This document shows, piece after piece, positions 1,788 through 38,768 of a DNA stretch of 49,914 nt. The notes under the pieces were generated by a model that saw only the letters and a list, made by a program, of their open reading frames with translations, was not told the DNA's origin and did no database searches. This stretch comes from Olsenella phocaeensis (GTDB taxonomy: Bacteria; Actinomycetota; Coriobacteriia; Coriobacteriales; Atopobiaceae). The position numbers and the translations under genes were made by a program. Position 1 is the stretch's first letter, and the number at the start of each line of letters is the position of its first letter. Location of the stretch: contig NZ_LT635494.1 in NCBI RefSeq assembly GCF_900120385.1, forward strand, positions 1,774,598 through 1,824,511, given 5' to 3'.

Positions 1788-3155
1788 ATGGACGAGGACG
1801 GCCGCGGGAGGCTCCGCCCCGAAGGCGGGGAGGCAGATGGGAGGGACGCGGATGCTGAGGCCCAGAAGACCGCACTCCAGCCCACCGTCGCCAACGCGCG
1901 GGCGAGGGCCGGCGGACGCGATGGGGCGGGCGAGGGGTCTCTCCCCCGCCCCGAGGACGGCCTAGTCGCCCGGGCCGGGGCAGGCGCCGCCCGAGCGGGC
2001 GCCCTTCTTGCCGCACATCGCCTGGCCACTCTCCTGACCGGCGCCGCCATCGCGCTCCTCGTGGTGGTGGGGACGCTGCTGAGTCCTGTCATGGCAGGCA
2101 CTCCCGACGCCACGCGCGTGAGGGCCGACGCGCTCGCGCACACGCCCGTCCCCACGCACGACGGGGGACCCTGGAACCATGACGGCGTTCTCATTGCCAC
2201 GGACGCGCAGCTCAGGGAGAAGTCGACCGAAGCGTCTGGGGGCATCTCCGCCCGCACCACCGTGACCTACTCGGACGGGAGTGTCGAGGCGAGCTGGGAT
2301 GCCATCCTGCTCTACCAGAGGTCCGACGGGTCATGGGAGCTGGAGTCCATCGACGTCCCCCAAGCCGCGAGCTGGAGGCCGACCTCCGGCCCCGACCATC
2401 AGAAGCTGCTCGCGTCCCTGGAAGCGCTCCTCACCCGCGCCGAGGCGAGGCTCGACTCGCAGGGCGACGACGGGGAAGAGAGCCTCGCCAACCTGTACCG
2501 GGACTGCGAGGCCAGCGTCACCAACGACGAGCTCGACGTCGCGGCACGCCTCGACAAGATGACCGTCCGCTGCAGCAAGCAGGAGGGCTTCGCCTCGCGA
2601 AACTGCGACCTGAGCCTGACCCTGCGCTTCGTCACGGCAAGCGGCGTCTGGGAGCTCACCGACGTCAGCGTGAGCGACGGGGCGAAGGAGCTGGGATACG
2701 AGCCGCTCAAGGGCAGCTGGTCCGGCAGCTTCCGAACCCAGTCGTCGAGCGGACACAAGTGCCTGTCCGGACGGGACGCCGGGCTTCGGCTAAGCATCGA
2801 CGAGGTCGCGACGAGCGGCGACACCACCATGATCGCAGGCACGTTGGACGGCGTCGCGCACTTCCATCCCGAGCCCGAGCGGGACAGCACGGGCTGCGAC
2901 GGGGACTCCGCGCTCGAGTCCCTGGCCTTCACGGGCACGCTCCAGGACGGCTCCGACGGCCTCGTCTTCGACTGCGAGACCGCGGACGACGTGCGAGGGA
3001 GCGTGAGCTTGAGGCTCGAGTTCGGGAATGCGCAGAACCCCTCCGCCGCGACGGCGACGCTCGTCTCCACCCACGACTACCAAGACAGCTTCCTGCTCGT
3101 CCCCTACCAGAGGACGGCGCGCTACGAGGACGAGTTCGTGCTGAGAAAGGTGTGA
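1788..3155 (+). CDS. Membrane-anchored extracytoplasmic protein of unknown function
   Basis: I do not recognise the family. The 455-residue product has a low-complexity, charged N-terminal segment of about 75 residues, one hydrophobic segment at about 80-103, and then about 350 residues that are probably outside the cell. The extracellular part is Ser/Thr/Asp-rich, repeats YxDGSxEASW-like and GTLxD-like beta-strand motifs, and contains Cys residues that could pair. Two consecutive similar modules are possible. The open frame extends upstream to 1608, but the ATG at 1788 is preceded by GGCGGGAGGCGCG and is the likely start. The gene is transcribed divergently from prfA and converges on the flavoprotein gene at 3204. 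Confidence 0.72.
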   Translation: MDEDGRGRLRPEGGEADGRDADAEAQKTALQPTVANARARAGGRDGAGEGSLPRPEDGLVARAGAGAARAGALLAAHRLATLLTGAAIALLVVVGTLLSPVMAGTPDATRVRADALAHTPVPTHDGGPWNHDGVLIATDAQLREKSTEASGGISARTTVTYSDGSVEASWDAILLYQRSDGSWELESIDVPQAASWRPTSGPDHQKLLASLEALLTRAEARLDSQGDDGEESLANLYRDCEASVTNDELDVAARLDKMTVRCSKQEGFASRNCDLSLTLRFVTASGVWELTDVSVSDGAKELGYEPLKGSWSGSFRTQSSSGHKCLSGRDAGLRLSIDEVATSGDTTMIAGTLDGVAHFHPEPERDSTGCDGDSALESLAFTGTLQDGSDGLVFDCETADDVRGSVSLRLEFGNAQNPSAATATLVSTHDYQDSFLLVPYQRTARYEDEFVLRKV

Positions 3156-35440: not shown

Positions 35441-35803
35441 CTACTCTTCCCCCTCTTCCTTCCCCGCCTTCCTGAGCTGGGAGAAGCCAACGAACGAGAG
35501 TACGGTCTGGGCGACCACGAAGAAGAAGTACATGGGGAAGAGAACCATCGCCACGGCGTAGAGGATGGCTCCCACCAAGGCGAAAGAGGGCTTGTGCATG
35601 AAGAGCCCGAGCCCGTTGAAGATGACCGCCACGGCAGTGGATGCCAGGTGGGGCATGACGAGGTAGGTCGCAATCGCGGCGCCGGCTCGATAGGCGGTCA
35701 TCCCCGAGGAGCCCGCACCACCCCAGTAGTAGACGCTGTACAGGAGGTACAGCGCCCCCAACACGAACGAGATGAGCAGCAGTACGTTGAGCTTCTTCTT
35801 CAT
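35441..35803 (-). CDS. Small multi-pass membrane protein
   Basis: A 120-residue, strongly hydrophobic protein with about four membrane segments (roughly 7-27, 40-65, 68-85 and 87-107), a short loop WGGAGSSGM, and a charged C-terminal tail RKAGKEEGEE. No family was recognised. ATG 35803 follows GGAAGCGAAGTC with an AAGGAAG site. It is 67 bp downstream of the DUF5067 lipoprotein on the same strand and so probably belongs to its operon, which would place it in the kinase/HTH cassette. Confidence 0.7.
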   Translation of the reverse strand: MKKKLNVLLLISFVLGALYLLYSVYYWGGAGSSGMTAYRAGAAIATYLVMPHLASTAVAVIFNGLGLFMHKPSFALVGAILYAVAMVLFPMYFFFVVAQTVLSFVGFSQLRKAGKEEGEE

Positions 35804-35870: not shown

Positions 35871-36347
35871 CTACGAGAGACTGAAGGTCTGGGTGGCCAG
35901 GGGCTCGTCGCTCGCAGAGACGTACTCCTTCACCTCGACCTCGATGTCCGAGGTGTCCTGTAACGCATACGGGATGCGCACCTTTATTGTCCCGCCAGGC
36001 TTGACCTTGTTTGACCAGTCGGCAGTATCGACCCCGTCGACGATGCCCGGCTCGCACTGTATGCCGTTCTGGTACACCTCCATTGACGCCACCGCCATCA
36101 GCGACTGCGCTTCGTCGGAGTTATTCGTGAAGCTGTAGTCGATGACCGCGGCAGGGTTGCCCTGGTAGTCGACGGCGGAGGTGCAGCCGTCGATTGTCAC
36201 TTCGTAGTCGGACTTCGCCTTCTGAGCCTGGACGGGATCCGAGCCCGCGCCGTCGCCGCTCGACGACGGGGTGCCGGAGCAAGCCGCCAGCGGCAGGGCG
36301 ACAAGCGTGGCAACGACAACTGCACAAACGGTCTTCTTGACGCTCAT
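35871..36347 (-). CDS. Lipoprotein with a DUF5067-like domain
   Basis: This 158-residue lipoprotein has a signal peptide ending in the lipobox LAAC (Cys23), a Ser/Gly-rich linker, then a beta-sandwich domain (about 50-155) with YEVTIDGCTSAVDYQGNPAAVIDYSFTNNSDEAQSLM. This pattern matches my recollection of the DUF5067 family of surface lipoproteins of Coriobacteriia and Firmicutes; the function is unknown. ATG 36347 follows AAAGGTGAGAGAACAC. A 15-bp palindrome lies 76 bp upstream, inside a repeat that also precedes the HTH-like gene at 36874. It is followed by the small membrane protein gene. Confidence 0.78.
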   Translation of the reverse strand: MSVKKTVCAVVVATLVALPLAACSGTPSSSGDGAGSDPVQAQKAKSDYEVTIDGCTSAVDYQGNPAAVIDYSFTNNSDEAQSLMAVASMEVYQNGIQCEPGIVDGVDTADWSNKVKPGGTIKVRIPYALQDTSDIEVEVKEYVSASDEPLATQTFSLS

Positions 36348-36422
36348 GTGTTCTCTCACCTTTCTCTTTGCTGGCTTCTGCCAGGACAAAGGAGATGGTA
36401 GGGGCGAGAGAACCCCCGTTCA

Positions 36423-36437
36423 TTAGCTGTCAGCTAA
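36423..36437. promoter_or_regulatory. Palindromic operator candidate, copy 1
   Basis: TTAGCTG-T-CAGCTAA is a perfect 7-1-7 palindrome that includes the TAG stop of the HTH-like gene and lies 76 bp upstream of the lipoprotein gene. It is part of a ~38-bp sequence (36419-36456) repeated at 36921-36958. Confidence 0.6.
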
Positions 36438-36874
36438 CTGTTCGCGAGCGGGCCACCCAGAGCCGCGCCGCCCGTGAGGGGCCGCTCCCCCTGCTCCCAG
36501 AGGAGATGGTCGCAGCAGGTCACGCCCATCCCGCGCTCGAGGCAGAAGGCAATGACCACATCCCGGCGGCGGTCGGGCCTGAGGGCGCTCAGGCCGCCGC
36601 GTTCCAGGGCGTCGCTCGCGTCCTCCACGCCCAGCCCCATCCCGAAGCAGACCTGGAGGAGCTTGTCACGCGTGGGGCTTCGCGACCCAGAGAGGATCTG
36701 ATACGCGTAGGTGTGATTGAGGCCCGAGCGCCCCACGACCGCGCCACGCGAGAGCGAGCGCTCGCGCAGGGCGTCATCCGCCCAGCCGGCAAAGTTTCGG
36801 TCGTCAAGCGGCGCGCTTTCCAACGCGCGCCTGACGTCCGAACCGCAGTCCCTCAAGAAGCCCCACTCATCCAT
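36434..36874 (-). CDS. HTH-like regulatory protein linked to the kinase (paralogue 2)
   Basis: The 146-residue protein is a paralogue of the product at 38298-38768. Shared parts are the helix-turn-helix-like segment (GLNHTYAYQILSGSRSPTRDKLLQVCFGMGL against GLNATFGYQVFQGTRHIGRDRALMLAFGMGC), then RRRDVVIAFCLERGMG and a final ELGEE-like WEQGE. The region resembles an XRE/lambda-repressor-type domain with the HTH at about 43-80. It could bind DNA or serve as kinase substrate; the many Ser/Thr in its N-terminal half are compatible with either. ATG 36874 follows AAAGGGGTTGTGCA. The palindrome at 36925-36939 is just upstream. Confidence 0.75.
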   Translation of the reverse strand: MDEWGFLRDCGSDVRRALESAPLDDRNFAGWADDALRERSLSRGAVVGRSGLNHTYAYQILSGSRSPTRDKLLQVCFGMGLGVEDASDALERGGLSALRPDRRRDVVIAFCLERGMGVTCCDHLLWEQGERPLTGGAALGGPLANS

Positions 36875-36924
36875 TGCACAACCCCTTTCGCGTGAAAGGG
36901 TAGGTGGCGCGACGCGGCGATTCA

Positions 36925-36939
36925 TTAGCTGGCAGCTCA
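36925..36939. promoter_or_regulatory. Palindromic operator candidate, copy 2
   Basis: TTAGCTG-G-CAGCTCA, a near-perfect 7-1-7 palindrome, 50 bp upstream of the HTH-like gene. The surrounding ~38 bp match copy 1 at more than 80% of positions. Confidence 0.6.
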
Positions 36940-37046: not shown

Positions 37047-38294
37047 CTAGACGAGACCGGCCGCCTGGGCAAGGATCTGTAGCGCGAGCATAATCGCAAA
37101 GCCTGCGAAAAGCTCCTCCGCCACACGAAGCAGCAGACGCCTCGGGAGCGCGCCCCGATCCAGACCCGCGTACTCCCCCACCCCTGCCACGGCGCAAGCG
37201 AGCTCGTAGGAGGGGAGGAGTATCCACCAGGCCATGAGCACGAGGTACGAGATGGCGGCAAGCGACTCCTGGGCAATCCCCACCTGCCGTCCCACCTGCT
37301 CTGGCATGCCAAGGAGACCCGCGGCGAACACCACGAGGAGGACCACCGCGAACACGAGCGCGACGGTCTTGCGCACGGAGCGAGGCGCACGAAGCAGCGC
37401 CAGAACGGTCGGGGCGAGCTCCATCCAGACGTGGAGCGAGTGGGGGGCGAGGCTCCGGTCGCCCTTGGGGCGCAGCTCGACGGCCGGCACGGCAGCGGGT
37501 CCCTCCCGATCATCCTGTCCCGCCGTGCCCGAACCTTCGACGCAGGAGCGCAACTCAGCCATGAGCTCTGCCGCAGACTGAGGGCGCGCGCTGGGCTCAA
37601 GCGACCGGGCACGGCCTATCAGCCCGACCACCTCCCCTGGCACGGCGGCGAGTCCCAACGCAGGATCGAAGCCCCTCTCGCCTGGCCAGGTAGCTGTGAG
37701 CATGTAGGCGAGCACGCTCGCCAGGGAGTACACGTCGGACCTAGCATCGGTCTGGGCGAAGCCGAACTGCTCTGGTGCGGCAAAGCCCCAGGTGCCCAGG
37801 AGCGTCGTGTCTCGCCCCGCCTCGTCCGAGCGCAGGCGCGCGATGCCCAGGTCTATGAGGTGGGCGCATCCCCCGCCATCCACGATGACGTTCTTTGGCG
37901 TGATGTCGCGGTGTATGATGCCATGCTCGTGGAGCGCCTGTGCGGCGGAGCAGATTCCGTCCATGAGCCGCACCGCCCGCGGCAGGGAGAGCGGTCCCTC
38001 CCGCGTCACGAGGCCCTCGAGAGACTCCCCGTCCACGTACTCGAGCACCACGGCCAGGCGGTCAGGAAGGCGGTAGACGGTCTCCACTCGGGGAAGCCCC
38101 GGCTCGTCAACGCCCAGCAACGTGCCCCAGAGCCCAGGTGCGGCGAGTCCGCCAGCGAAGTACTTGCGCACGAAGAGGCCAGCCCCACCAAGGGTCACGA
38201 GCTCGGTCCTGAGCCCCTCTCGCTCGGAAAGCACCCGCTCGACCTTGTAGGCGTCGTCCAGCACAAGGGCGTGCAACACCTCTCCCTCGTCCAC
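37047..38294 (-). CDS. Membrane-anchored Ser/Thr protein kinase-like protein
   Basis: The 415-residue protein has an N-terminal eukaryotic-type kinase domain (1-~255): an active-site Lys44 (FVRKYF), the catalytic loop IIHRDITPKN (Asp130, Asn135), DLG at 148-150 in place of DFG, AAPEQFG (APE 173-175) and SDVYSLASVLAYMLT. The glycine-rich loop is degenerate. After a linker rich in Ser/Pro/Glu come three hydrophobic segments (about 311-330, 346-365, 394-412), so the kinase is held at the membrane from its C-terminal end. The start GTG/ATG region at 38294 lies 3 bp after the HTH-like gene. Substrates are unknown; the neighbouring HTH-like proteins are the obvious candidates. Confidence 0.85.
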   Translation of the reverse strand: MDEGEVLHALVLDDAYKVERVLSEREGLRTELVTLGGAGLFVRKYFAGGLAAPGLWGTLLGVDEPGLPRVETVYRLPDRLAVVLEYVDGESLEGLVTREGPLSLPRAVRLMDGICSAAQALHEHGIIHRDITPKNVIVDGGGCAHLIDLGIARLRSDEAGRDTTLLGTWGFAAPEQFGFAQTDARSDVYSLASVLAYMLTATWPGERGFDPALGLAAVPGEVVGLIGRARSLEPSARPQSAAELMAELRSCVEGSGTAGQDDREGPAAVPAVELRPKGDRSLAPHSLHVWMELAPTVLALLRAPRSVRKTVALVFAVVLLVVFAAGLLGMPEQVGRQVGIAQESLAAISYLVLMAWWILLPSYELACAVAGVGEYAGLDRGALPRRLLLRVAEELFAGFAIMLALQILAQAAGLV

Positions 38295-38297
38295 GCG

Positions 38298-38768
38298 TCA
38301 GCCCTCCGCAGGCAGGAGGGTCTCTTCCCCCATGCGGTAGAGCTCGTCGTCGCAGTCCTCGCGGCTGAGCCCGCGCTCGAGGCAGAAGATGACGATCGCG
38401 TCGCGCCGCCGGCGACTCCACAGCTCCGCATGCCCCGCCAGACGCAGTAGCCTCTGGGCCTCGTGCAGGGTGCAGCCCATGCCGAAGGCGAGCATCAGGG
38501 CCCTGTCGCGCCCGATGTGCCGCGTGCCTTGGAAGACCTGGTAGCCAAAGGTGGCGTTGAGTCCGGCGGCGGCAATGGCCTGCGCGCGCCCGAGGCCCTT
38601 CCGCTCCAGGAGGTCGCGCAGGTACTCGGCGAGGTCGCGCCCCTCGAGGTCGGGCTCGACGGCGCTGAGATAGCCCTCTATCGAGGTGGACGCGAGCAGG
38701 CGCTCGAGGAGCTCCTCGGTCACGTGCTCGTGGCCGCAAGAATCGACCTCCGACCGCTCTTTGGCCAT
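38298..38768 (-). CDS. HTH-like regulatory protein linked to the kinase (paralogue 1)
   Basis: A 156-residue protein whose central part (about 60-110) is an XRE-like helix-turn-helix region (GLGRAQAIAAAGLNATFGYQVFQGTRHIGRDRALMLAFGMG), followed by LHEAQRLLRLAGHAELW, RRRRDAIVIFCLERGLS and DDELYRMGEETL. It has a paralogue at 36434-36874. Proteins like this occur beside Ser/Thr kinases in other Gram-positive anaerobes, as far as I recall. ATG 38768 follows GGGAAGGGAAGCGC. The stop is 3 bp before the kinase start, so the two are co-translated. Confidence 0.8.
   Translation of the reverse strand: MAKERSEVDSCGHEHVTEELLERLLASTSIEGYLSAVEPDLEGRDLAEYLRDLLERKGLGRAQAIAAAGLNATFGYQVFQGTRHIGRDRALMLAFGMGCTLHEAQRLLRLAGHAELWSRRRRDAIVIFCLERGLSREDCDDELYRMGEETLLPAEG

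Follow-up and report, generated by a model that had tools for sequence, protein, structure and literature searches.

The gene pair at the head of this cassette, a Cro/cI-type HTH gene and the membrane kinase gene that follows it, probably constitutes a dedicated kinase-activator pair that drives the expression of exported proteins and, in a subset of genomes, of type I restriction operons. This reading is built on features that the sequence itself provides, namely the pairing, a fold model for the HTH partner, an operator, a fixed promoter geometry and covariation between operator and protein. The cassette lies on the minus strand of a stretch of 49,914 nucleotides from Olsenella phocaeensis, which we refer to as the window.

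The cassette and its proteins

The HTH1 gene (38298-38768, minus strand; ATG start, 156 aa) is separated by 3 bp from the downstream kinase gene (37047-38294, minus strand; GTG start, 415 aa), which encodes a Hanks-type Ser/Thr kinase with C-terminal transmembrane helices. These are followed, still on the minus strand, by HTH2 (36434-36874; ATG start, 146 aa), a DUF5067 lipoprotein gene (35871-36347, for which the best start is the ATG at 36347) and a small membrane protein gene (35441-35803). The positions of the first three genes and the 3 bp gap, as given in the first-pass annotation, are borne out by the ORF coordinates; the lipoprotein and small membrane protein that it placed nearby are present, and the former can now be specified as a DUF5067 protein (Pfam 94.5 bits, cut-off 27).

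The kinase matches Pkinase (PF00069) at 86.4 bits (cut-off 31.7), and the catalytic loop IIHRDITPKN, the APE motif (as AAPEQ) and the C-terminal membrane region described earlier, a hydrophobic C-terminus, were all found. The nearest structure to its model (pLDDT 86) is PknB of Mycobacterium tuberculosis, and the modelled chain closes with three long hydrophobic helices (307-328, 340-370 and 383-411). When 27 homologues were aligned, K44, HRD 128-130, N135, D148 and the activation-loop residues T163 and T168 were invariant; neither a conserved GxGxxG glycine loop, which is degenerate, nor a conserved alphaC Glu was found in the homologue alignment. The glycine-rich loop and the alphaC Glu are accessory kinase features, missing in several active kinases, but as they are unconserved here, kinase activity is not certain. 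There are three Hanks kinases in the window genome; the other two, about 110 kb off and 7 kb apart, have higher Pkinase scores and adjoin no HTH gene of the family.

HTH1 and HTH2 are paralogues, as had been proposed: they share 38% identity over 111 aa (E=1e-25), fall in a single family of XRE-type fold, and are its only strong members in the 2.28 Mb window genome. The sequence motifs said to unite them are indeed common to both, although they are better written as GLNxT[FY]xYQ and RRRDx[IV][VI]xFCLERG. HTH1, the predicted DNA-binding activator, consists of a conserved N-terminal arm ('LTEELL..SPEAYL'), a Cro/cI-type HTH at residues ~46-110, and a conserved helical C-terminal extension; HTH2 is without the arm but keeps the A-type recognition residues (Q, R). 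No Pfam or NCBIfam HTH model finds HTH1 above its cut-off, and the Cro/cI HTH profile gives 15.1 bits for HTH1 and 21.2 for HTH2 against a cut-off of 27, which a relative (L082) exceeds at 35.6. A profile of the HTH family retrieves Cro/cI-type proteins in the PDB, and the AF2 model of HTH1 (pLDDT 86) is a five-helix HTH fold, for which Foldseek gives C.AhdI, DdrO and 434 Cro as the nearest PDB chains (rmsd 1.7-2.1 A over ~60 residues). Nothing in Pfam, NCBIfam or the PDB matches the helices past residue 110, and HTH1 contains no sigma2 or sigma4 domain (Pfam, NCBIfam) and no SARP or FHA domain (Pfam). HTH1 is modelled as a Cro/cI-type HTH with a conserved C-terminal helical extension. Three threonines are conserved in the HTH proteins (T17, T73 and T150), and these are candidates only for a phosphosite; at a further conserved position, T135, HTH1 has a Ser.

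A distant version of the module of HTH and extension, scoring ~40-50 bits, recurs throughout the Coriobacteriia as the C-terminal part of proteins with an ADP-ribose-binding macrodomain; such fusions occur in loci L097, L100, L103 and L104, and as ~400-aa ORFs in genomes G028, G029, G055, G111 and G164. Diverged HTH proteins (family f6; L092 and L093) are also encoded close to a kinase gene in genomes that lack the operator described below, and may represent a third specificity.

Pairing of kinase and HTH genes across the Coriobacteriia

Among 115 distinct HTH homologues with enough flanking sequence, 110 have a kinase gene within 1.5 kb, which lies downstream on the HTH strand in 98 of those 110. 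The reverse count, starting from the kinase and so free of query bias, gives a cleaner result: all 27 kinases of the cassette type (>=288 bits) in 23 genomes adjoin an HTH gene, while the other intact kinases in the same 23 genomes score at most 154 bits and none is beside an HTH gene. One kinase fragment in genome G056 is also found behind an HTH gene. The HTH genes are plainly not placed at random with respect to kinases, and the recurrence of the pair, which the first-pass annotation had proposed as a check, extends across the Coriobacteriia and also to Listeria; chance is ruled out because conservation of the pair is reciprocal across the whole class. The HTH and kinase trees are correlated (r=0.65, against <=0.13 in 500 permutations, with the species tree uncontrolled), and the B-type paralogous pair, distinguished below by its operator, forms one clade in the HTH tree and one in the kinase tree.

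The HTH family occurs in 112/140 genomes of the window's own family, and the pair in 77/101 of its good genomes; class-wide, the HTH family is present in 264/398 Coriobacteriia genomes, with a strong match in 236. There is essentially no member in Actinomycetota outside the Coriobacteriia. In Listeria, a kinase gene (31% identical) and the gene of an HTH homologue (37-39% identical) are arranged divergently, and a DUF5067 lipoprotein comes after the kinase. By its gene order, we take this to be the lmo0618 locus. An in-frame deletion of lmo0618 was among mutants with lowered replication in Caco-2 cells (PMC3091722), and the literature searched for the kinase-HTH pair gave only passing mentions of lmo0618, and none of lmo0619. 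The HTH and kinase genes are divergent on a gut contig and adjacent on a contig from a viral collection. Public 'plasmid' and 'phage' records among the hits (H1-H9, up to 2.9 Mb) are evidently misfiled Listeria chromosome or gut bacterial contigs, and were rejected as phage or plasmid hits.

The operator, its promoter geometry and its covariation with the HTH protein

A 15-bp palindrome, TTAGCT-N3-AGCTAA, is found twice in the window cassette, where 0.05 such palindromes are expected from shuffles of the window. The copy before the DUF5067 gene is exact, TTAGCTGTCAGCTAA at 36423-36437 (operator 1, TTAGCTGACAGCTAA, minus strand), and that 5' of HTH2 (operator 2, TGAGCTGCCAGCTAA, 36925-36939, minus strand) has a single mismatch. 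Allowing up to one mismatch, the palindrome is present in 64/99 pair loci, compared with 0/99 for its reversal and 0.45/99 for permuted palindromes. Class-wide, exact operators occur in 174/236 genomes with a strong HTH match and in 7/162 without, a contrast that is not itself inflated by genome relatedness, although the Fisher p-value (7e-49) is overstated by it; the reversed control gives 38/236 and 11/162 respectively. The exact operator is missing in about a quarter of strong-HTH genomes, and none is found among the palindromes inspected at Listeria loci. Both halves are similarly conserved, while the downstream half runs on asymmetrically into TGAA. A known RNA element at the palindromes was rejected for want of an Rfam match, and a terminator because no T-run lies behind the palindrome.

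Some minor occurrences fall outside this pattern. One mobile element with an excisionase-like ORF, present in three genomes (L218, L223, L228), carries repeats of an exact operator-like palindrome that has no -10 box at 22 bp and is likely unrelated. Beside a third, weak operator-like site in the assembly from which the window comes, a segment of ~0.9 kb is doubled around an N (L168 1-990 and ~2131-3015; G000:C1 near 1392569), probably through an assembly join.

What follows the operator is as regular as the operator itself. In ~60 aligned sites, a TA...T box lies 22 bp past the operator in 38/60, and in none at 21 or 23 bp; the looser pattern xA...T is present at offset 22 in 57/60 sites, compared with a mean of 2.5 and a maximum of 8 in shuffles. 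The consensus of this -10 like box is TAnnAT, and in the window it reads TACCAT behind operator 1 (36395-36400, minus strand) and TACCCT behind operator 2 (36897-36902, minus strand), each 22 bp past its operator. The combination of operator and -10 pattern, with one mismatch allowed, is found in 37/38 genomes, with three control hits, and the window genome contains exactly two instances, both in the cassette. No TTGACA-like -35 was seen at the ~60 aligned operator sites, where ATGAA or ATGTT stands instead. Given the fixed 22-bp spacing, the palindrome would occupy about -49 to -35, with its centre near -42. This is the position taken by class II activators, lambda cI at PRM among them. The architecture thus corresponds to that of a class II activator (operator near -41.5 and fixed -10 spacing), with the transcription start site being predicted; cI activates PRM from OR1/OR2 (PMC3708714). 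It had been suggested that the HTH proteins regulate the cassette from DNA in response to the kinase: the operators inside the cassette favour the first part of this, and we infer the second.

The connection between operator and HTH protein is drawn most closely by loci that have changed both. A different palindrome, TCAGTT-N3-AACTGA, is common to pair loci without the TTAGCT operator; it usually lies between the HTH and kinase genes and mostly keeps the 22-bp spacing to the -10 box. At all 9/9 readable loci of this B type, the TCAGTT operator is accompanied by D77 and S/T83 in the recognition helix; at A and mixed A loci, residue 77 is Gln (one Glu) and residue 83 nearly always Arg. The B type arose once, and so this covariation represents a single evolutionary event, the outcome of which is spread over three families. 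It gives the strongest evidence that the HTH protein reads the operator, and operator recognition by HTH1 is well supported by these comparisons.

The C-termini of B-type kinases include a long extracytoplasmic region with repeated 'LEIVESGW...' segments that appear Ig-like by eye (L106, L108, L110, L113, L122, L125, L140, L145 and L035). A DUF5067 domain fused to these kinases is not claimed, as the extra extracytoplasmic domains match no Pfam family.

Proposed mechanism, its alternatives and the predicted targets

We propose a model in which the membrane-anchored Hanks-type kinase senses an envelope cue and controls HTH1, presumably by Ser/Thr phosphorylation. An HTH1 dimer would bind TTAGCT-N3-AGCTAA centred near -42, at promoters that lack a recognisable -35, and once bound would activate transcription in class II fashion, in the manner of lambda cI at PRM. 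Its targets in the window would be the DUF5067 lipoprotein gene, as the predicted main target (probably together with the small membrane protein gene behind it), and HTH2. The latter is a predicted target and a possible modulator of the cassette operators: because it shares the recognition residues of HTH1 but is without the N-terminal arm, HTH2 may compete at these operators and so act as a feedback element. Elsewhere, the regulon would add genes for exported LRR, S-layer, DUF4352 and lipoproteins, and some type I restriction operons. Phosphorylation, the direction of its effect, the signal, feedback through HTH2 and activation as opposed to repression are the parts of this model that go beyond what is read from the sequence.

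The position of the operator could also suit a repressor. Cro/cI-type proteins often repress, a site at -42 overlaps the -35 position and could serve this purpose, and HTH1 might then cover the -35 region of its targets until phosphorylation by the kinase relieved the repression. We consider this unlikely, since a repressor has no need of a rigid 22-bp spacing, yet the TA...T box never shifts by 1 bp at cassette sites, and since ATGAA or ATGTT in place of a TTGACA-like -35 is typical of activator-dependent promoters. It is less likely still that the palindrome is the site of some other regulator, or a promoter element for an alternative sigma factor, leaving the HTH protein as only a substrate or adaptor of the kinase. 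The asymmetric TGAA extension of the downstream half is something that a promoter element could have, but the two halves are similarly conserved, the presence of the operator tracks the HTH protein across genomes, and the changes at residues 77 and 83 match the change of operator between paralogous pairs.

Kinase-HTH operons such as HipBA exist, and the cassette might by analogy be a toxin-antitoxin or anti-phage module, with the kinase as toxin or abortive-infection effector and the HTH protein as antitoxin or autorepressor. PADLOC matches the kinase to its PD-T4-6 and mad6 models, and the operator occurs on some restriction operons. These matches come through the generic kinase domain, however, with none for the partner proteins; Pfam gives Pkinase, no HipA family domain was found in the kinase by Pfam or NCBIfam, and most of the target genes encode exported proteins. 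Presence in the majority of the family's genomes (the 77/101 above) and co-evolution of the pair resemble core signalling and are unlike a mobile defence gene. The defence system entertained in the first-pass annotation is for these reasons very improbable, and the sole link of the pair to defence appears to be an indirect one, the operator on type I restriction operons in eight genomes.

The dedicated kinase-activator pair that we favour has partial analogues. In the pairs of ECF43 sigma factors with cognate Hanks-type kinases, PknS-EcfK of Xanthomonas citri and PknT-EcfP of Vibrio parahaemolyticus (PMC13147305), a kinase gene likewise co-occurs with one dedicated regulator, phosphorylation of which turns on a regulon; that regulator is an ECF sigma factor, whereas HTH1 is an HTH protein of Cro/cI type that lacks any sigma domain and has its operator near -42. 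In M. tuberculosis, PknH-EmbR combines a kinase with a substrate that is a DNA-binding activator of envelope genes, and EmbR2, a paralogue of EmbR, is a competing decoy (PMC4601284) comparable to HTH2. However, EmbR is a SARP that carries an FHA domain and is phosphorylated by several kinases, while HTH1 is without both domains and seems to belong to one kinase only. The lambda cI and C-protein family shares the HTH fold, and cI at PRM the operator position, but HTH1 has in addition its unmatched C-terminal extension and a kinase partner. The Listeria Lmo0618 locus places the same kinase, HTH and DUF5067 lipoprotein families side by side, but with HTH and kinase genes divergent and the Coriobacteriia operator absent. 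Two-component systems offer a membrane kinase, one cognate DNA-binding regulator and duplicated pairs with new operators, though the histidine kinase and receiver domain are absent here and the chemistry is that of Ser/Thr. We are evenly divided over a wider reading along these lines: that the pair is a Ser/Thr counterpart of two-component signalling, a dedicated Hanks kinase and cI-like class II activator that is core to Coriobacteriia, duplicated with co-evolved operators, in control of envelope DUF5067/DUF4352 proteins and some restriction operons, and anciently shared in another version with Listeria and other Bacillota.

The literature searched yielded no Hanks kinase partnered by a Cro/cI-type protein that has an operator code of its own. 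Bacterial Hanks kinases have been characterised as pleiotropic, without a tie to any one regulator (PMC4601284); in the present case, a single kinase type goes with a single DNA-binding protein throughout a class of gut bacteria, and operator, promoter geometry and specificity residues are all legible in the sequence. The pair therefore offers a clean case of operator-regulator co-evolution, makes a testable pathway out of a little-studied kinase and a DUF5067 family that had lacked an explanation, and provides Coriobacteriia with a predicted regulon.

The genes behind operator-promoters were chosen by a simple ORF rule, with unlinked sites taken from genomes that were listed first or rich in sites, so that proportions among them are no estimates. 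Their exported products are DUF5067/DUF4352 lipoproteins, DUF4190-DUF5067 tetraspan proteins, an Ltp lipoprotein, and LRR, S-layer and sortase proteins, several of which are encoded within pair cassettes. A DUF5067/DUF4352-like ORF lies within 2.5 kb in 24/48 pair loci with long flanks, B-type loci being without one, and in locus L034 an operator whose -10 box is likewise 22 bp away immediately precedes the gene for a homologue (65% identical) of the small membrane protein. Type I restriction operons with a CopG/RHH-like lead ORF carry the operator and a -10 box at 22 bp in eight genomes from three families, and restriction may in these cases be placed under the host's kinase-HTH pair. In type I restriction or helicase operons of this kind (L202, L204, L205, L208, L213, L224, L226, L327, L331 and L343), the lead ORF is 67-71 aa long and the -10 box mostly TAGAAT or TAAAAT.
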